Shown here in pieces: positions 3,796-43,911 of a stretch of 64,000 bases of DNA. Every line of letters starts with the position of its first letter. The first letter of the stretch is position 1. Made by a program: the position numbers and the translations under genes. Location of the stretch: positions 1 through 64,000 of the IMG/VR virus record IMGVR_UViG_3300037010_003037; one strand, written 5' to 3'. The stretch is from a virus. Under the pieces are notes generated by a model, which saw only the letters and a list, made by a program, of their open reading frames with translations, did no database searches and had not been told where the DNA came from.

Positions 3796-5409
3796 ATGAT
3801 GTCAAACAATTTTTACGCTAATGTGATGGTGGGTAACTCAGCTGAAGTTACGCCTCAGACAGAAACAATTCCTGGTCGTGAATCAGAAATGGTTAAGAAC
3901 AGTGCTGGTGGGTTCACCTTCCAGCTAGATATGTGGGGCTATTTGGACCGCTTTTTAATCCTTGGTTCTGAAAAACCGTCATATTACGTTACCGCGCAAA
4001 AGTTAACGCTCGACGCGGCAAAGAATGTTCTTGAGTGCATCAAGACCGATGGAATTAGAACAGTAAACCGCATTGTTGAAATCTCACAGAGTGGTCGCGC
4101 ACCGAAGAATGATCCAGCGGTTTTTGCTTTGGCACTTTGTGCTATCAATGGCAATGAAACAACAGTAAAAGCAGCCTATGATGCACTGCCAATGGTGTGC
4201 CGTATTGGTACGCATTTGTTTCAATTTGTCTCTACGCTGGACGTGCTTGGTAAATGGAATGCTGCTGCAAAACGTGGTATTGCAGCGTGGTACACGAAGC
4301 GCGATGAAAACCGTTTAGCCGTTCAGCTTCTAAAGTATCAATCACGAAATGGTTGGTCGCATCGAGATGTTTTGCGCCTTGCGCACATTAAGCCAGCTAA
4401 TGAGCGCCAGTCAAATATGTTCCGCTATGTTGTGAAGGGAGCAGAAAGCCTACAAGAAGGTATGAGTGTTCCTGAGCTGATTACAGCCTATGAGATGCTA
4501 AAGCGTGATCCTTCAAAGAAGAACGCGCTTAAGTTGATTAGTGAATTTAAGGATATCACATGGGAAATGTTGCCAACTGAACTACATCGCGACCGTGATG
4601 TGATGTCTGCTTTGATTCAAAACATGGGCATGACAGCGCTTATTCGCAAGCTCGGTCAGCTAACAAACATTGGAGTGATTAAGCCCATGTCTTCTGATTT
4701 GAAGACCGTAATCACGAAGCTGTCTGACGTTGAAACTATCAAGGCAAGCAGAATTCATCCAATTACAATTTTGAACGCGTTTAACCAGTATAAAAATGGT
4801 AAAGGTGACAAGGGATCACTAACATGGGAACCAGTGCAAAGAGTTCTAGATGCATTGAACGATGCGTTCTATGAATCATTCAACTATATTGAATCTACAG
4901 GACAAGGTCACTTGATTGGGGTTGATTGTTCTGGTTCAATGTTTGGTGCTAATGTCATTGGTGCTAGTAACCTAACAGCAGCTGAGGTTGCTGGTGTTAT
5001 GGCATTGGCTGTGGCAAAACGCGAACCTAATTATTGGATTGGGGGATTCAATACTAAGATGGGTGAGTTAAAGATCACACCATCAATGCGTCTTGACGCG
5101 GTTCTTAATGTTATGCGTCGTTTTTCTTGGGGTGGTACTGACTGCTCTCTGCCAATGTTGCACGCCATTGATAATAAACTTGACGGTGTTGACAAGTTTG
5201 TAGTTATCACTGATAATGAAACATGGGCAGGTAGAGTTCACCCAGTGCAGGCTTTGGGTATGTACCGGAAACGTTACGTTAAAAATGCAAAGCTGATTGT
5301 TTGCGCCACATCTGCAACGAAATTTACGATCGCTGATCCTAAGGATCCTGGGATGTTGGACACTGCAGGATTTGATTCTTCTGTTCCACAGCTAATTCAG
5401 CAATTTTGA
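3796..5409 (+). CDS. rsr: Ro60/Rsr RNA-binding ring protein (TROVE + VWA)
   Basis: A 537-residue protein, close to the length of Deinococcus Rsr. The N-terminal two thirds is an alpha-helical TROVE/HEAT-repeat domain (around 60-340), which in the family forms a ring that holds misfolded RNA ends and binds Y RNA on its outside. The C-terminal third is a von Willebrand A domain with an intact MIDAS motif DCSGS (D377, S379, S381) and downstream GGTD and TDNE segments. AAGGAG lies 6 nt before the ATG. The gene follows a structured RNA and its own promoter, and is closed by a terminator at 5433. In bacteria Ro60 acts in stress RNA decay with PNPase; in a phage it may redirect host RNA turnover (inference). 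Confidence 0.93.
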   Translation: MMSNNFYANVMVGNSAEVTPQTETIPGRESEMVKNSAGGFTFQLDMWGYLDRFLILGSEKPSYYVTAQKLTLDAAKNVLECIKTDGIRTVNRIVEISQSGRAPKNDPAVFALALCAINGNETTVKAAYDALPMVCRIGTHLFQFVSTLDVLGKWNAAAKRGIAAWYTKRDENRLAVQLLKYQSRNGWSHRDVLRLAHIKPANERQSNMFRYVVKGAESLQEGMSVPELITAYEMLKRDPSKKNALKLISEFKDITWEMLPTELHRDRDVMSALIQNMGMTALIRKLGQLTNIGVIKPMSSDLKTVITKLSDVETIKASRIHPITILNAFNQYKNGKGDKGSLTWEPVQRVLDALNDAFYESFNYIESTGQGHLIGVDCSGSMFGANVIGASNLTAAEVAGVMALAVAKREPNYWIGGFNTKMGELKITPSMRLDAVLNVMRRFSWGGTDCSLPMLHAIDNKLDGVDKFVVITDNETWAGRVHPVQALGMYRKRYVKNAKLIVCATSATKFTIADPKDPGMLDTAGFDSSVPQLIQQF

Positions 5410-6817: not shown

Positions 6818-6825
6818 CATAAATA
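6818..6825 (+). promoter_or_regulatory. T4-late-type promoter motif (CATAAATA) for the PrkA operon
   Basis: CATAAATA sits 40 nt upstream of the prkA ATG at 6865, inside a small inverted repeat (ATGCATAAATAATGCAT). No convincing -35. It suggests late expression of the three-gene operon. Confidence 0.5.
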
Positions 6826-6864
6826 ATGCATAGACATACTATCACACATAGGAGAGCGCTCATA

Positions 6865-8823
6865 ATGAATCTCAGCACAAGTTTTAAAGAATCGTTTACC
6901 AAAAAGTTTGCTAGTGATGATGAGATGCCGCTTTTGCAGTATCTTGAACTTTGCAAAACTGATAAAATGGCATATGCCAACGCAGCTGAGAGGATGCTCG
7001 CTGCTATTGGTGAACCAACGGTCATTGACACATCAACTGATCCACGACTTTCACGAATCTTTTCTAACAAGAAAATTAGGCACTACAAAGCATTTAGTGA
7101 TTTCTATGGTGCAGAAGAAGCAGTTGAACGAATGGTTGCTTATTTCCGCCACTTTGCTCAAGGTTTGGAAGAATCAAAACAAATTCTTTATCTGAAGGGT
7201 CCAGTCGGTGGTGGTAAATCCTCGCTAGTTGAGCGCTTGAAGGTGCTCATGCAGCAAAACCCAATTTATGTTCTCAAGGATCCAAATGAAAAGAATCCTG
7301 AGCTTCAGATTTCCCCTCTTTTCGAATCCCCGCTTGGTCTATTCAATGCCCAAGAGCACGGTGAAATACTTGAAGCTGAATACGGAATTCCATCTCGCTA
7401 TCTTAACACTGTTATGAGTGGGTGGGCACAACAAAAACTACGTGAGTTTGGTGGTGATGTTACAAAGTTTTCAGTTGTTCGCATCTATCCTAACAAGGAC
7501 ACACAGGTTGGCATTATGAAGGTGGAACCTGGTGATGACAACAACCAGGACGTTTCAGTTTTGGTGGGTAAAACTGATATTCGTAAGCTTGAAGTTTACT
7601 CGCAAAACCATCCATATGCTTACTCATACAGCGGTGGTTTGAATCGCACAACTCAGGGGATGATGGACTTTGCCGAAATGTTTAAAGCAAACATTAAGAC
7701 ATTGAATCCACTGCTAACTGCAACACAAGAACACAATTACAATGGTACTGAAAACGTTCCATCGATGCCTTATAATGGTATTATTTGCGCTCACTCTAAT
7801 GAAGCAGAATGGTTTACGTTCCGTAATAACAAGACAAATGAAGCTTTCCTAGATCGTGTTTATATCGTTGATGTTCCGTATTGTCTGCGGGTCGATGAAG
7901 AACAAATGATCTATGAAAAGATGCTGAAGAGCTCAAGCTTGGCAGATGCACCTTGCGCCCCGCAAACTCTAAAATCTTTGTCCGAATTTATGGTTCTAAC
8001 TCGACTCAAAGAACCAGAGAACAGTACCATCTTTGCTAAGATGAAAGTTTACAACGGTGAAAACGTTAAGGACACTATGCCAATGGCTAAGCCTTACGAA
8101 GAATACCGAGAAGCTGCAGGCAAGGATGAGGGCATGACGGGCTTGTCTACCCGCTTTGGCTTCAAGATTTTGTCTCAAACGTTTAATTTGCGCCCAGAAG
8201 AAATTCAAGCCAACCCTATTGATCTGATGTACGTGCTTGAAACTTCTTTGAAGCGAGAGCACCTTCCACAGGAAACGCTAGACACGTACATGGACTTTAT
8301 TAAGTCATGGATTCAGCCGCGTTATTTTGAGTTTATTGATAAGGAGCTTCGCATCGCTTATCTTGAATCGTACAGTGATTTTGGTCAAACCATGTTTGAA
8401 CGATATGTTCTGTTTGCAGAAGCATGGATTGATGAAACTACAGTTCGTGATCCCGAGACACATACTCTGCTGAACAGGGATAACCTAAATGCGAAACTTG
8501 AGGAAATTGAGAAAGCAGCAATGATTGCTAATCCTAAGGATTTTAGAAATGACATTGTGCATTACGTGCTGCGCTACCGCGCTAAGAATGAAGGGAAGAT
8601 GCCAGCCTGGAATTCTTACGAGAAAATCAAAAACGTTATTGAAAAGAAGATGTTTGCTGCTACAAACGAGATTATGCCAATTGTTTCGTTCTCTCCAAAA
8701 GGGTCGAGCGAAGAACAGAAGAAGCATGATGAATTTGTTGCTCGCATGCGCACCAAGGGCTATACTGATCGTCAAATTAAGATCTTGGTTGATTGGTGGG
8801 TCAATAACCGGAAATCTAACTAA
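6865..8823 (+). CDS. yeaG: PrkA/YeaG-family serine protein kinase (AAA+)
   Basis: A 652-residue protein, near the 640-650 of bacterial YeaG/PrkA. It has an N-terminal AAA+ module with Walker A GPVGGGKSS at about 112-120 and a C-terminal region of the PrkA type (long helical stretch with GMTGLSTRFGFKILS). The ATG at 6865 is chosen over one 39 nt upstream because GGAG sits at good spacing before it. In E. coli yeaG forms an operon with yeaH and is induced by starvation and RpoS; PrkA has been reported as a Ser/Thr kinase and also as a AAA protease. yeaH- and ycgB-type genes follow directly, so the phage carries the complete trio. Confidence 0.93.
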   Translation: MNLSTSFKESFTKKFASDDEMPLLQYLELCKTDKMAYANAAERMLAAIGEPTVIDTSTDPRLSRIFSNKKIRHYKAFSDFYGAEEAVERMVAYFRHFAQGLEESKQILYLKGPVGGGKSSLVERLKVLMQQNPIYVLKDPNEKNPELQISPLFESPLGLFNAQEHGEILEAEYGIPSRYLNTVMSGWAQQKLREFGGDVTKFSVVRIYPNKDTQVGIMKVEPGDDNNQDVSVLVGKTDIRKLEVYSQNHPYAYSYSGGLNRTTQGMMDFAEMFKANIKTLNPLLTATQEHNYNGTENVPSMPYNGIICAHSNEAEWFTFRNNKTNEAFLDRVYIVDVPYCLRVDEEQMIYEKMLKSSSLADAPCAPQTLKSLSEFMVLTRLKEPENSTIFAKMKVYNGENVKDTMPMAKPYEEYREAAGKDEGMTGLSTRFGFKILSQTFNLRPEEIQANPIDLMYVLETSLKREHLPQETLDTYMDFIKSWIQPRYFEFIDKELRIAYLESYSDFGQTMFERYVLFAEAWIDETTVRDPETHTLLNRDNLNAKLEEIEKAAMIANPKDFRNDIVHYVLRYRAKNEGKMPAWNSYEKIKNVIEKKMFAATNEIMPIVSFSPKGSSEEQKKHDEFVARMRTKGYTDRQIKILVDWWVNNRKSN

Positions 8824-8851
8824 TAAACTTAACTAAGATCTGAAGGACATC

Positions 8852-10156
8852 ATGCCATTTATTTTCATTGATAGAAGAAAGGCAGGTGGCGGTAAATCAA
8901 CTAATAATCGTCAGAAGCTTATTCGGCGTGTTAGGGGATTTATTAAAACATCTGTTCCACAAAACATTGGAGCTGGTGGTGTTAGTGGCACTAATGCAAA
9001 AAGCATGAGTCCAGTCAAAGTTACTGGCGAGGCGCTTGAAGAACCATTCTTCGCTTATGCAAATGACGGCAATGAAGTATCTGTCGTTATTGGTAATGAT
9101 CAGTATGATCGCGGTGATGAGATAGAATTTCCAGAAGAACAAGCAGCAGGTTCTGGCGCAGGGCCTGGAGAACAAGGTGAAGATGATTTTATTGTGAACG
9201 TGGCTCGTTCTGAATTCCTTGATGTCTTCTTTGAGGACTGTGAGCTTTATCTAACACACGAGCGCTTTACAGAAAAACTTGATAATAAGCACCAACCTGC
9301 TGGTTTTTCTACTACTGGTAACCCATCTCAGCTTAGTATTATTCGCACGTACAAGCAATCATTGGGCCGTCGTTGGGCTTTAATGAAGCCTTACAAGGAA
9401 GAACTTGAACAGCTTCGTGAGGAAATTAAGACAGTTGAGGAGAACAGTGAGCGTTGGAAAGAGATTGTTGCGCGTATTGAACAACTTCTTGGTAAGCTAT
9501 CATTTCTAGATTCATTTGATAAGTCTGATTTGCGCTATCGTAAGAAGGAAGCTAAACCCCTAAAGACTGTTGACGCTGTTCTTATCATGCTCATGGACAT
9601 TTCTGGATCTATGGGGAAAGAAGAAAAAAGCATAGCGCGGCGGTGGTTTGCTTTGCTTTATGAATTCATTAAACGTAAATATCCAACGGTTGAATTAAGA
9701 TTCATTGCTCACACTGATGAAGTGTTTGAGATGAATGAAGATGACTTCTTCAGTACTCGCATCAACGGTGGTACTCAAGTGTCTGTTGCCCTTAATCATA
9801 TTAGTAAAATGATTATTGAGCAATATGATCCAAATCAAACTAACATAATCGTCTGCCATGCGTCAGATGGTGACAACTGGTATGATGATAATGAAGCTGT
9901 AATTGACGCGATGATAGGGAAAGGAAACCTTATGAACAGGTGTAGCATGTTCAGTTATGTTGAAGTTGGAAATGAGAATTTTATAACGAACAGTGCTGGT
10001 GTACCAATAGTTATTCGCACTAACACTAATCTTTGGGAAACTTATGATGCTGTTCGCTTGAAACAACCGCCACATAAAGTCTCTTTAGCAAGAATTGGAA
10101 CACCAGATGATTGCTATCCTGTTTTCAAAAAAGTTTTTAGCAAAAAATCTAAATGA
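8852..10156 (+). CDS. yeaH: YeaH/YhbH-family protein (DUF444, VWA-like)
   Basis: A 434-residue DUF444 protein. The start is a basic region (FIDRRKAGGGKSTNNRQKL); a central coiled segment of about 60 residues (EELEQLREEIKTVEEN) leads to a VWA fold with MIDAS DISGS (D249, S251, S253) and then FIAHTDE and NGGTQVS strands. YeaH is the conserved partner of the PrkA/YeaG kinase. A GAAGGA site precedes the ATG, and its stop overlaps the start of the SpoVR-like gene by four bases (ATGA), so the three proteins are translated as a unit. Confidence 0.93.
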   Translation: MPFIFIDRRKAGGGKSTNNRQKLIRRVRGFIKTSVPQNIGAGGVSGTNAKSMSPVKVTGEALEEPFFAYANDGNEVSVVIGNDQYDRGDEIEFPEEQAAGSGAGPGEQGEDDFIVNVARSEFLDVFFEDCELYLTHERFTEKLDNKHQPAGFSTTGNPSQLSIIRTYKQSLGRRWALMKPYKEELEQLREEIKTVEENSERWKEIVARIEQLLGKLSFLDSFDKSDLRYRKKEAKPLKTVDAVLIMLMDISGSMGKEEKSIARRWFALLYEFIKRKYPTVELRFIAHTDEVFEMNEDDFFSTRINGGTQVSVALNHISKMIIEQYDPNQTNIIVCHASDGDNWYDDNEAVIDAMIGKGNLMNRCSMFSYVEVGNENFITNSAGVPIVIRTNTNLWETYDAVRLKQPPHKVSLARIGTPDDCYPVFKKVFSKKSK

Positions 10157-11649
10157 CAGAACCACTAATCACATCACGTACTGACTGGACTCCAGAGCTA
10201 CTACAAGAAATTTATAGTCATATTGAAGATGTGGCTTTAAATGATCTGAAGCTAGATGTTTATCCTAACCAAATTGAAGTAATCTCTGCAGAGCAGATGA
10301 TCGATGCATATGCATCAGTTGGTTTACCTGTAATGTACCCACATTGGTCGTTCGGAAAACAATTTTTGTCTAACTGGACAAAATACCAGAAGGGGCGAAT
10401 GGGTCTTGCATATGAGATTGTTATCAACAGTAATCCATGCATTAGCTACTTGATGGAAGAGAATAATGCTGTGATGCAGGCTCTTGTCATCGCCCACGCG
10501 GCGTTTGGGCATAATCACGTCTTTAAGAACAATTACATGTTTAAGGAGTGGACAGCAGCTGGTTCAATTATCGATTACTTGATCTTTGCAAAGACATTTA
10601 TTCGTGACTGTGAACTGCGCTATGGTCAAGATGAAGTTGAACTGCTTTTAGATGCCGCGCACGCGCTAGCACCTCATGGAGTTGATAAGAGAAAACGCAA
10701 GCACAAAAAGAAGCTGACAAAGGAAGAAGAAGCAGCAAAGCTTGTGTTAGATGCTGATGAAGAGCAGTTAAGTCTTGACATTATCATTAAGTCAACATCT
10801 AAGAAGATTGAAGAGAAAAAAGATGAACAGGACGATGATTTAGTCGGAGATGAAGAAAATTTGCTTTACTTTCTAATGAAGTTCTCTCCAACTCTTAAAG
10901 AATGGCAGCGAGAGGTTTTGAGAATCGTTTACAAGATTCATCAGTACTTTTATCCTCAAAGCCAAACTAAAGTCTTAAATGAAGGGTTCGCGACATTCAC
11001 GCACTTCTACATTATGGATGAGCTTGAAAAGCGGGGTTTGATTTCAGCTGACGCGCAGATCTCGTGGTTGCACTCACACTCGAATGTTATATACCAGCCA
11101 ACATATAAAAGTAAGCATTATGATGGTGGTTTTAATCCATACGCTTTAGGTTTTGCAATTCTGAAAGATATACGCCGTATCTGTGAAAATCCAACTGAAG
11201 AAGATAAAGAATGGTTTCCTAACCTAATTGGTATGGAATGGCGGGATGCTATTAAGGATGCAGTTGCTGAATACCGTGATGAAAGCTTTATTCAACAATT
11301 TCTTTCTCCTAAGGTTATTCGTGATTGGAATCTTTTCATTGTTGAACATCACAAAACATATGGTTATGTCAGTGAAATTAGTGATGATAAAGGTTATAGA
11401 AATATTCGAAATGCCCTATCAGCTAATTACGCCACTATCAATCGTATTCCTGATATTGTTGTAAAGTCAGCACGAATGAAAGGAGATAGAACTCTAACTC
11501 TTGAGTACCATCCATACAAAGGAAGATCATTACATGGTCCTTTTGCAAAGAAAACCATAGAGTTCGTTAAACTTCTATGGGGTTATGATGTAGAGATAGT
11601 ACAAACAAATAAAGATAGAATGGAAACAGTCATAGTAAAGGCAAAATAA
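10153..11649 (+). CDS. ycgB: SpoVR/YcgB-family protein
   Basis: A 498-residue SpoVR-like protein, the usual length. Visible family blocks include MYPHWSFGKQF, the GLAYEIVINSNPCISYLMEENN stretch around 95-115, AHAAFGHNHVFKNNYMF, and the late VLNEGFATFTHFYIM and NPYALGF segments; the His/Glu-rich blocks look like a metal site. A Lys-rich insert lies near 177-190. The molecular role of SpoVR/YcgB is unknown; in bacteria it is co-regulated with yeaGH, in Bacillus it affects the spore cortex. Third gene of the operon, ended by the terminator at 11651. Confidence 0.93.
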   Translation: MTEPLITSRTDWTPELLQEIYSHIEDVALNDLKLDVYPNQIEVISAEQMIDAYASVGLPVMYPHWSFGKQFLSNWTKYQKGRMGLAYEIVINSNPCISYLMEENNAVMQALVIAHAAFGHNHVFKNNYMFKEWTAAGSIIDYLIFAKTFIRDCELRYGQDEVELLLDAAHALAPHGVDKRKRKHKKKLTKEEEAAKLVLDADEEQLSLDIIIKSTSKKIEEKKDEQDDDLVGDEENLLYFLMKFSPTLKEWQREVLRIVYKIHQYFYPQSQTKVLNEGFATFTHFYIMDELEKRGLISADAQISWLHSHSNVIYQPTYKSKHYDGGFNPYALGFAILKDIRRICENPTEEDKEWFPNLIGMEWRDAIKDAVAEYRDESFIQQFLSPKVIRDWNLFIVEHHKTYGYVSEISDDKGYRNIRNALSANYATINRIPDIVVKSARMKGDRTLTLEYHPYKGRSLHGPFAKKTIEFVKLLWGYDVEIVQTNKDRMETVIVKAK

Positions 11650-11650
11650 A

Positions 11651-11672
11651 AAAGGGCTCCTAGGAGCCCTTT
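11651..11672. terminator. Bidirectional terminator
   Basis: A perfect 22-nt palindrome AAAGGGCTCC-TA-GGAGCCCTTT between the plus-strand SpoVR-like gene and the minus-strand virion gene. It serves both converging units. Confidence 0.85.
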
Positions 11673-16391: not shown

Positions 16392-16479
16392 TCATCGTTT
16401 GACATCATTTTAGAATGATGCATGATTCAATGGTGGTTAAATAATATGTCATATCAAATTTTACATGAGGAATCCTCAA

Positions 16480-17268
16480 ATGCTTCCACAAATCCGAACT
16501 GCAGATATTCGTCAAGAATTCAAATCACTCCTATCTGCTGGTAAATTTACGTCTGTTAATCGTGAAGCAACAATGACGAGTTTAACAGGCGACACGACAA
16601 TAGAAATTGTTAGTGCCTCCTTCATCGCTGATGAAGAATCAATCTTTGGTGAAGTTAACTGGGATTACGTTAAGCGAGAAGAAGAGTGGTATAACTCTAT
16701 GTCCCTTAACATAAATGACATTCCCGGTGGCCCTCCACAAATTTGGAGAGCCGTTGCTGACAAAGATGGATACATTAACTCAAATTATGGTTGGTGTATC
16801 TATTCACCAGAAAATGGTTTTAATAAGTCTGTACGTGAAGTAACGAGTCAATATGTAAGAGTCCGCGCAGAACTCAAAACAAATCCAGAATCTCGTAGAG
16901 CTATCATGATCTATACTCGTCCATCCATGTGGGTAGATTACCATAAAAATGGGCGTTCAGATTTTATGTGTACTAATTCCGTGCAATACCTTATTCGTGA
17001 TGGCCAACTGCATGCAATAGTGCAGATGCGCAGCAATGACTCTATCTTTGGTTATCGTAATGATAGAGCATGGCAACAGCATGTTCTTGAAAAGCTTGCT
17101 GCTGAGTTAAACATCCCTGCTGGTAATTTGTATTGGAATGTTGGTTCACTTCACATATACGCGCGCCATTACTATCTGGTAGATCACTTTGCAAAAACAG
17201 GAGAATTAAACATTTCAAAAGCTGACTATAAAAAGCTTTATCCAGACTCTCCATACTTGCTAGTGTAA
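16480..17268 (+). CDS. 42: dCMP hydroxymethylase (T4 gene 42 type)
   Basis: A 262-residue member of the thymidylate synthase fold that matches T4 gp42 block by block from memory: the SASFIADEESIFG region, SNYGWCIYSPENG, SRRAIMIYTRPSMW, the nucleophile segment DFMCTNSVQYLIRD (C164), RSNDSIFGYRND with D195 where thymidylate synthases carry Asn, and WNVGSLHIYARHYYLVDH. The Asp at that site marks cytosine rather than uracil preference, so the enzyme converts dCMP to 5-hydroxymethyl-dCMP using methylene-tetrahydrofolate. The ATG at 16480 has GAGGA at proper distance; an earlier in-frame ATG (16465) does not. The helicase, a kinase and the glucosyltransferase lie downstream. Confidence 0.93.
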   Translation: MLPQIRTADIRQEFKSLLSAGKFTSVNREATMTSLTGDTTIEIVSASFIADEESIFGEVNWDYVKREEEWYNSMSLNINDIPGGPPQIWRAVADKDGYINSNYGWCIYSPENGFNKSVREVTSQYVRVRAELKTNPESRRAIMIYTRPSMWVDYHKNGRSDFMCTNSVQYLIRDGQLHAIVQMRSNDSIFGYRNDRAWQQHVLEKLAAELNIPAGNLYWNVGSLHIYARHYYLVDHFAKTGELNISKADYKKLYPDSPYLLV

Positions 17269-42984: not shown

Positions 42985-43911
42985 ATGGAACAACAATATC
43001 TTCAACTGCTTAATGATGTTCTTCTCAATGGAGAAGATCGTATGGATCGTACTGGTGTTGGCACTCGCTCAGTTTTCGGTCGACAGATTCGCTGTGATTT
43101 AAATGACGGTTTCCCAGCCATTACAACAAAGAAATTGTTTTGGAAACCGTTGGTTGCAGAACTACTGTGGTTCATTGAAGGAAGCGGAGATGAGCGCCGG
43201 CTTGCTGAAATCCAACATGGTACTAGAGATGCAAGCGCAATCACCATTTGGACTGCGAACGCGCAAGCCGATTACTGGAAACACAAAGCAAAATTTGATG
43301 GCGATGTCGGACGCATTTATGGAGTCCAATGGAGAAAATGGCGAGGATTTAAGCTAGATTCAGCAGGTCATGCTGTACAACACGATGATCCAAATAAGAC
43401 TATCACGTTTTTTAATGCAAAAGTTCAGCGCTGGGAAGTTGATCAACTTGCTAATATCATTCATTCACTTAAGTCAAATCCGGCAGACCGTCGAATGATC
43501 TTGAGTGCGTTTAACGCTGGCGAGCTTGATCAGATGGCACTTCCACCATGTCATATGTTCGCGCAGTTTCATTGCAGTGAAAAGGGACGTCTTAGTTGTC
43601 AGGTGTACATTCGTTCAAATGATTTGTTTCTTGGACTGCCATTCAACATTGCCAGTTATGCGTTGCTAACACATATGTTAGCACAGGTAACTGGTAAGAC
43701 GGTTGGAGATTTAATCATCACAATTGGCGATGCACACATTTACCTTAATCACATTGAACAGGTAAAAGAACAGCTTACACGGACACCCTTCAAGGCGCCT
43801 TCCTTAGTTCTGAACCCTAACATAATGGATATTAACCAGTTCACGATGAACGATATCATGTTAAAGAACTACGAATCTCACCCAGCTATTAAAGCACCAA
43901 TGGCGGTTTAA
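42985..43911 (+). CDS. thyA: Thymidylate synthase
   Basis: A 308-residue ThyA that methylates dUMP to dTMP with methylene-tetrahydrofolate. Visible: MDRTGVGTRSVFGRQIR, WGDVGRIYGVQWRKW-type segment, LPPCHMFAQFH with nucleophile C189, RSNDLFLGLPFNIASYALL with N221 (the uracil-selecting Asn), and GDAHIYLNHIEQ. The contrast with the Asp of the 16480 enzyme at the same position shows the division of labour between the two paralogues. The folate cycle is completed by the phage DHFR. Confidence 0.95.
   Translation: MEQQYLQLLNDVLLNGEDRMDRTGVGTRSVFGRQIRCDLNDGFPAITTKKLFWKPLVAELLWFIEGSGDERRLAEIQHGTRDASAITIWTANAQADYWKHKAKFDGDVGRIYGVQWRKWRGFKLDSAGHAVQHDDPNKTITFFNAKVQRWEVDQLANIIHSLKSNPADRRMILSAFNAGELDQMALPPCHMFAQFHCSEKGRLSCQVYIRSNDLFLGLPFNIASYALLTHMLAQVTGKTVGDLIITIGDAHIYLNHIEQVKEQLTRTPFKAPSLVLNPNIMDINQFTMNDIMLKNYESHPAIKAPMAV

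Follow-up and report, generated by a model that had tools for sequence, protein, structure and literature searches.

A 64,000-nucleotide stretch of viral DNA (the window; positions 1 to 64,000 of IMG/VR record IMGVR_UViG_3300037010_003037) carries the genes of PrkA (YeaG), YeaH (DUF444) and SpoVR (YcgB) in this order at positions 6865-11649. Full-length Pfam matches confirmed the complete trio reported for this phage by a first-pass annotation of the sequence. The phage copy looks complete and catalytically competent, late expression of the three genes is well supported by sequence, and the trio is an accessory that one close relative does without. Our preferred interpretation, held tentatively and with somewhat less than even confidence, is that these late-read genes supply a stationary-phase "brake" on the infected cell. 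The features on which the analysis rests are as follows.

6818-6825, plus strand: CATAAATA, a motif resembling a T4-type late promoter, 39 nucleotides (nt) 5' of the PrkA start (positional enrichment)
6865-8823, plus strand: PrkA/YeaG, AAA+ ATPase with a C-terminal kinase-like domain, 652 amino acids (aa) (Pfam, NCBIfam, residue comparison)
7198-7221, plus strand: Walker A motif GPVGGGKS in PrkA
8852-10156, plus strand: YeaH/DUF444, a protein with a von Willebrand factor A (vWA) domain, 434 aa (Pfam, metal-ion-dependent adhesion site (MIDAS) residues, vWA fold of the model)
9596-9610, plus strand: YeaH MIDAS D249-x-S251-x-S253, together with T308 and D339
10153-11649, plus strand: SpoVR/YcgB, 498 aa (Pfam, alignment, AlphaFold2 model)
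10495-10512, plus strand: invariant SpoVR motif H115-A-x-x-G-H120 (alignment)
10978-10992, plus strand: invariant SpoVR motif N276-E277-G278-x-A280 (alignment)
11651-11672, no strand assigned: bidirectional hairpin resembling an intrinsic terminator, between SpoVR and a convergent tail-fibre gene

Profile searches assigned all three proteins to their families. PrkA was matched over its full length (AAA_PrkA, 6.7e-160; PrkA C-terminal domain, 2.8e-61), passed the NCBIfam equivalog PRK15455 (1009.6 bits; cut-off 576) and has a solved structural homologue in 9xip (E 1.4e-46). Its best start is the ATG at 6865, which is preceded by a Shine-Dalgarno sequence; a longer open reading frame (ORF) from 6826 would start directly at the promoter motif. 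The function of E. coli YeaG depends on K116, R232 and K426 (PMC4664914), and all three residues are retained in the window protein as K118, R240 and K434. YeaH matched the whole DUF444 profile (2.8e-103; 1-418 of 418) and missed the NCBIfam equivalog cut-off of the PRK05325 group (best 357.1 bits vs 396), and on these profiles it is a family member divergent from the bacterial equivalogs. Its five MIDAS residues were invariant across 27 proteins, those of Thermus phages included, and the predicted structure is a vWA fold whose structural neighbours include the MIDAS domain of MDN1/Rea1 and NorD; such a fold would fit an adaptor of an AAA+ motor. SpoVR matched Pfam SpoVR (1.8e-147) and SpoVR_C (9.4e-13), narrowly missed the PRK11767 equivalog cut-off (664 vs 679 bits), which makes it likewise a divergent family member, and kept all of the most conserved residues of the family. 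The motifs described earlier as intact (Walker A and MIDAS) were present, as were the residues essential in E. coli YeaG. In one relative (L009:13638-15641), YeaH is found in two ORFs that flank one of 181 aa, namely a 212-aa N-terminal half and a 237-aa vWA half; the break falls in the linker preceding the vWA domain, and no intron family was matched in this region.

Late expression was deduced from the placement of the promoter motif. Raw counts of the TATAAATA and CATAAATA octamers showed no excess in the window, and only the positional test was informative. ATAAATA occurred 23 times (3.18 per kb) in sense-strand intergenic DNA at most 100 nt upstream of genes of the 147.7-kb contig, compared to 0.24 per kb in other intergenic DNA and 0.02 per kb in coding DNA, and it ranked first among 21 heptamers of the same composition for upstream placement in the whole contig. 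The genes preceded by such a box include those of the prohead protease, a putative baseplate protein of 2933 aa and a tail-fibre-like protein. Both enrichment and placement are therefore those expected of a T4-type late promoter, i.e. a TATAAATA-like box just 5' of late genes, and the late-type promoter of the first-pass annotation was upheld by a position far from random, not by over-representation. The box also lies 35-54 nt upstream of PrkA in the sister phages L003, L004, L005/L006 and L017; L016 lacks it before PrkA, as do L007-L009, which are more distant. Two further claims about the operon stood in part. Translational coupling was confirmed for YeaH and SpoVR, which share an ATGA overlap at 10153-10156, and not for PrkA and YeaH, which are separated by 28 nt and each have their own Shine-Dalgarno sequence. 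The proposed terminator is a strong hairpin (9-bp stem, -15.2 kcal/mol, z -3.0), but it is not the operon's own: it works in both directions, also serves the convergent tail-fibre gene and has its better T-tract on the minus strand.

Conservation of the trio across phage genomes was confirmed. PrkA-seeded and SpoVR-seeded scans recovered 11 and 14 viral loci, respectively; these counts are lower bounds, as the search was pattern-based, and a few loci represent the same phage in different samples. All three genes were present in 23 of 23 viral records and kept the same order in 22, sometimes with other genes inserted, the exception being LR756502, in which SpoVR lies about 244 kb from PrkA-YeaH in the same genome. 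The distance matrices of the three proteins were concordant (Mantel r 0.83-0.92), which, together with the complete co-occurrence, indicates that the genes have been selected together. Since synonymous sites were saturated, dN/dS was mostly not computable and the proportions of nonsynonymous and synonymous differences (pN and pS) are given instead: between the window and its near relatives, PrkA had a pN of 0.10-0.16 at a saturated pS of about 0.8-0.9. These substitution patterns are those of strong purifying selection. Of the genes compared at the locus, PrkA was the best conserved, above Ro60, thymidylate synthase and helicase, and no broken PrkA or SpoVR was seen at the loci examined. YeaH was the fastest-evolving member, with 58-67% identity among nearest relatives vs 78-86% for PrkA. 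Rapid divergence of the likely adaptor is what would be expected under changed specificity, and an alternative explanation is that the phage copies antagonise or replace the host PrkA-YeaH-SpoVR through mixed, inactive or retargeted complexes and thereby prevent host shutdown. We consider this improbable, as the active-site and MIDAS residues are all kept, whereas a dominant-negative protein would need neither these residues nor all three genes. Several relatives carry ORFs that by eye resemble GIY-YIG homing endonucleases between the trio genes (L004:11908-12550, L006:13587-14311, L015:2900-3624 and L017:7275-8583), and these interruptions make the locus appear to be a hot spot of homing.

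In the PrkA tree, the window protein fell inside a nine-member, all-viral clade with a long stem (support 100/100), while the remaining phage PrkAs interleaved with bacterial ones, forcing at least four viral/bacterial label changes (the starred branches), and the Thermus phage PrkAs formed a separate group. Given this topology, several acquisitions followed by long retention in phages are the best explanation. A rare, recently acquired trio with inactivating mutations in relatives, the opposite case considered in the first-pass annotation, agreed with our data only in rarity among cultured phages (a PrkA match of any kind in 16 of 50,697 records); the supported viral clade argues against recent acquisition, and the retained active-site residues and the unbroken PrkA and SpoVR argue against inactivation. 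That the genes are neutral passengers, caught by chance from a host or representing host DNA at a prophage edge, is very improbable and already contradicted. Such artefacts do occur: in Enterobacter phage LAU1 (MN688132.1, L081; 1-3308), YeaG and YeaH are 98% and 93% identical to those of E. coli, begin at the first base of the record and have the opposite orientation to the phage genes; they are probably a piece of host chromosome, from the edge of a prophage, that was annotated as phage. The window genes, however, lie between phage genes with synteny conserved in relatives, belong to an old viral clade, keep their essential residues and bear the marks of purifying selection, and a host-DNA artefact was rejected on the grounds of conserved phage synteny, the all-viral clade and this selection. 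On the bacterial side, PrkA was common in the phylum of a Burkholderiales locus (L036; 49 of 200 genomes) and was found in 1 of 99 genomes of the phylum of Pontibacter, namely the Pontibacter centre genome itself, which suggests that Pontibacter gained the trio laterally. The Pontibacter PrkA (loci L027-L038) groups near those of huge phages.

The possible function of the trio was approached by analogy with E. coli, where YeaG and YeaH act together to quiesce metabolism under nitrogen starvation and where mutants lacking either protein recover faster and survive less well (PMC4664914, PMC10954441). In the phage, an accessory cassette beside tail-fibre genes would be transcribed from the late promoter, PrkA (an AAA+ motor with a kinase-like domain) and YeaH (a MIDAS adaptor) would act as one remodelling machine, and SpoVR would be its partner or client. 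Made late, the trio may bring the infected cell into a stationary-phase-like state of low metabolism, or keep it there, and so preserve energy and cell integrity while a long infection cycle runs or while the phage multiplies in starved hosts. The timing, complex formation and host effect are what we infer, and the suggestion of the first-pass annotation that the phage pushes cells into a stress state or manages infection of starved hosts may hold in this form. The wider formulation, that jumbo phages repeatedly captured and long kept an AAA+/MIDAS/pseudo-metallopeptidase machine and express it late as a stationary-phase-like brake, is possible but doubtful.

Several observations weigh against such a brake. 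It is odd to find a late promoter on a gene that should ready a starved host early. The phage Paride replicates on dormant hosts in a manner requiring host RpoS and (p)ppGpp (PMC10761892), which by itself speaks in favour of the brake, yet cultured-phage records of the Paride group, which by portal are related jumbo phages, gave no PrkA match; infection of dormant hosts therefore does not require the trio. The biochemistry of PrkA is uncertain even in bacteria, because the kinase and protease activities of purified Bacillus PrkA were negligible (PMC13001217). Finally, a close relative of 358 kb with a portal 68% identical (G310) has a collinear locus (HNH, Ro60, DHFR, fibres, a nuclease-like gene, thymidylate synthase and helicase) without the trio, so that the trio is dispensable and cannot be required in every setting. 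A loss in G310 would explain this difference more simply, since G311, an outer branch as judged by portal identity (50-57%), carries the trio in the corresponding position along with Ro60 and DHFR. A late effect on the envelope was also considered, in which the trio reinforces or remodels the cell wall and delays lysis or keeps the envelope sound during a long infection. Although the late promoter, the yeaGH polymyxin B response (PMC4664914) and the spore-cortex annotation of SpoVR in the phiYS40 record are consistent with it, none of the genes at the locus was recognised as a lysis gene and a cortex role is specific to spore formers, which leaves this explanation distinctly improbable.

Part of the case for the trio as a machine depends on SpoVR, for which we obtained an AlphaFold2 model (pLDDT 81.5). 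VIA-align placed gluzincin-type peptidases, putative peptidases or ACE/ACE2 relatives in its first 24 rows, with a best Z of 12.2 (202 residues). Foldseek gave no credible match with the model (best E 0.36), hhalign found nothing between SpoVR and E. coli PepN, no homologue was detected by sequence among PDB sequences, and the peptidase-like fold is thus a VIA-align result. In the model, two helices bear the invariant H115, H120 and E277, as in gluzincin enzymes, and the position of the catalytic glutamate of HExxH/HExxxH is taken by an invariant alanine (A116). We regard a gluzincin-peptidase-like fold without the catalytic glutamate as a lead, according to which SpoVR may bind a metal and act as a partner or client rather than as a peptidase. 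SpoVR of a huge phage (L026:9977-11875 and L079:14534-16432; a 288-kb contig and LR756504 of 636 kb) carries an in-frame insert of about 125 aa resembling a mini-intein (CLVEGSLIS...FINHN|C), placed exactly within NEG|xA, where the family is most highly conserved. Together with the predicted fold, this intein site hints at a possible active centre.

The 147,697-base source record has no end repeats and is a fragment of a larger genome, of which the window is a part. It encodes a T4-type portal (phrog_213), a prohead protease (phrog_207), a baseplate hub protein and a DnaB-like helicase. The terminase profile PF03237 gave no match in this fragment, and the portal was taken as marker instead; the nearest cultured portals are those of Xanthomonas phage XacN1 (40%), Stenotrophomonas jumbo phages (37%) and the Pseudomonas PA5oct/Paride group (37-38%). 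These marker genes and portals place the genome as a fragment of a T4-related jumbo phage similar to XacN1 and RsoM2USA. The first 25 kb had no Megablast match in phage records, Rfam RNAs and tRNAs were absent from the window, and a PADLOC search for defence systems gave a single match (E 0.0097, over a short stretch) that was regarded as chance. Two neighbours upstream of the trio recur in relatives.

3799-5409, plus strand: Ro60/Rsr-like RNA-binding protein (TROVE and vWA; Pfam), syntenic in L004, L006, L007, L016 and L017
6375-6803, plus strand: Bactofilin-like protein (Pfam Bactofilin, 4e-11), directly upstream of the trio and likewise 5' of PrkA in L004, L005 and L006

The trio also adjoins two tail-fibre-like genes, one of them convergent with SpoVR, and this position bears on the chief rival of the brake reading, in which the trio chaperones late virion parts. 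PrkA and YeaH would then form an AAA+/MIDAS chaperone pair (like NorQ-NorD or Rea1) that, with SpoVR, folds a late phage product (the adjacent tail fibres, for instance), loads it with metal or assembles it, and leaves host physiology unaltered. The late-type promoter common to the trio and structural genes, the resemblance of the YeaH model to the NorD and MDN1/Rea1 MIDAS domains, and the invariant His/His/Glu set that the SpoVR model places on a gluzincin-like scaffold are consistent with such a role. We nevertheless judge it unlikely, because the trio has other neighbours in L010-L012 and L019-L026, G310 keeps its fibre genes without the trio, and the bacterial homologues act in stress without virions. 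Elsewhere in the window, a short tandem-repeat ORF on the minus strand (554-883; CTSW/LICTSW repeats) is probably a simple repeat and not a gene, and positions 16465-17268 and 43042-43911 hold one thymidylate-synthase-like gene confirmed by Pfam and one ORF whose N-terminus resembles another thymidylate synthase.

Phage carriage of these genes is known from single annotations, namely PrkA and SpoVR in Thermus phages of the phiYS40 type and in RsoM2USA, and we found no paper in the open-access literature that treats the trio as a conserved phage module. Viral spoVR has been reported from an oxygen minimum zone, where it was abundant as an auxiliary gene and was interpreted in terms of sporulation (PMC8940887); for the window phage this interpretation is probably wrong, because its cultured relatives infect non-sporulating Gram-negative hosts. 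In nature, starvation is the state of most bacteria, and the open question of how phages deal with hosts that do not grow would become testable, by one gene deletion in a cultured phage, through a complete and conserved quiescence module under a late promoter in lytic jumbo phages. If it does act as a late brake, the trio would be a viral module of dormancy control, distinct from ordinary auxiliary metabolic genes. It also offers an outside handle on PrkA-YeaH-SpoVR, whose biochemical job in bacteria is unknown, and the phage sequences reveal which residues of the three proteins are indispensable.

Compared to E. coli yeaG-yeaH and ycgB, the phage trio comprises the same three families with the same essential residues. 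The E. coli ycgB gene is unlinked (1,235,709-1,237,241 vs 1,866,908), whereas the window phage has its counterpart linked, and the host genes are regulated by NtrC and SdsR (PMC4664914, PMC10954441), whereas the phage genes follow a late-type promoter. Identity to the sampled bacterial forms reaches at most about 62% for phage PrkA and is about 30-36% for phage YeaH. The clusters of Pontibacter and Burkholderiales (L027-L038) have a contiguous trio in the same order as the phage; they are chromosomal, with 54-58% PrkA identity, gaps of tens to hundreds of bases and no ATGA overlap. Among viruses, the huge phages LR745206, LR756502 and LR756504 (634-642 kb) have the full trio, but their PrkA lies near that of Pontibacter and not in the window clade, and SpoVR is intein-bearing in LR756504 and unlinked in LR756502, a separation resembling that of ycgB from yeaGH in E. 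coli. The Thermus phages phiYS40, phiLo, MN1 and TMA have the serine kinase (PrkA), SpoVR and a vWA protein close together, but differ in their separate clade, about 27% identity, the order YeaH-SpoVR-PrkA and an aspartate at the position of E. coli K426; their trio is an independent acquisition. In the Ralstonia phage RsoM2USA, a lytic, XacN1-like phage of 343.8 kb with a latent period of 270 min (PMC8504454), which was compared by its published description, PrkA (ORF30) and SpoVR (ORF28) lie on the same strand with one ORF-sized gap between them; the two are listed apart in that description, which leaves ORF29 unnamed and does not discuss a trio.

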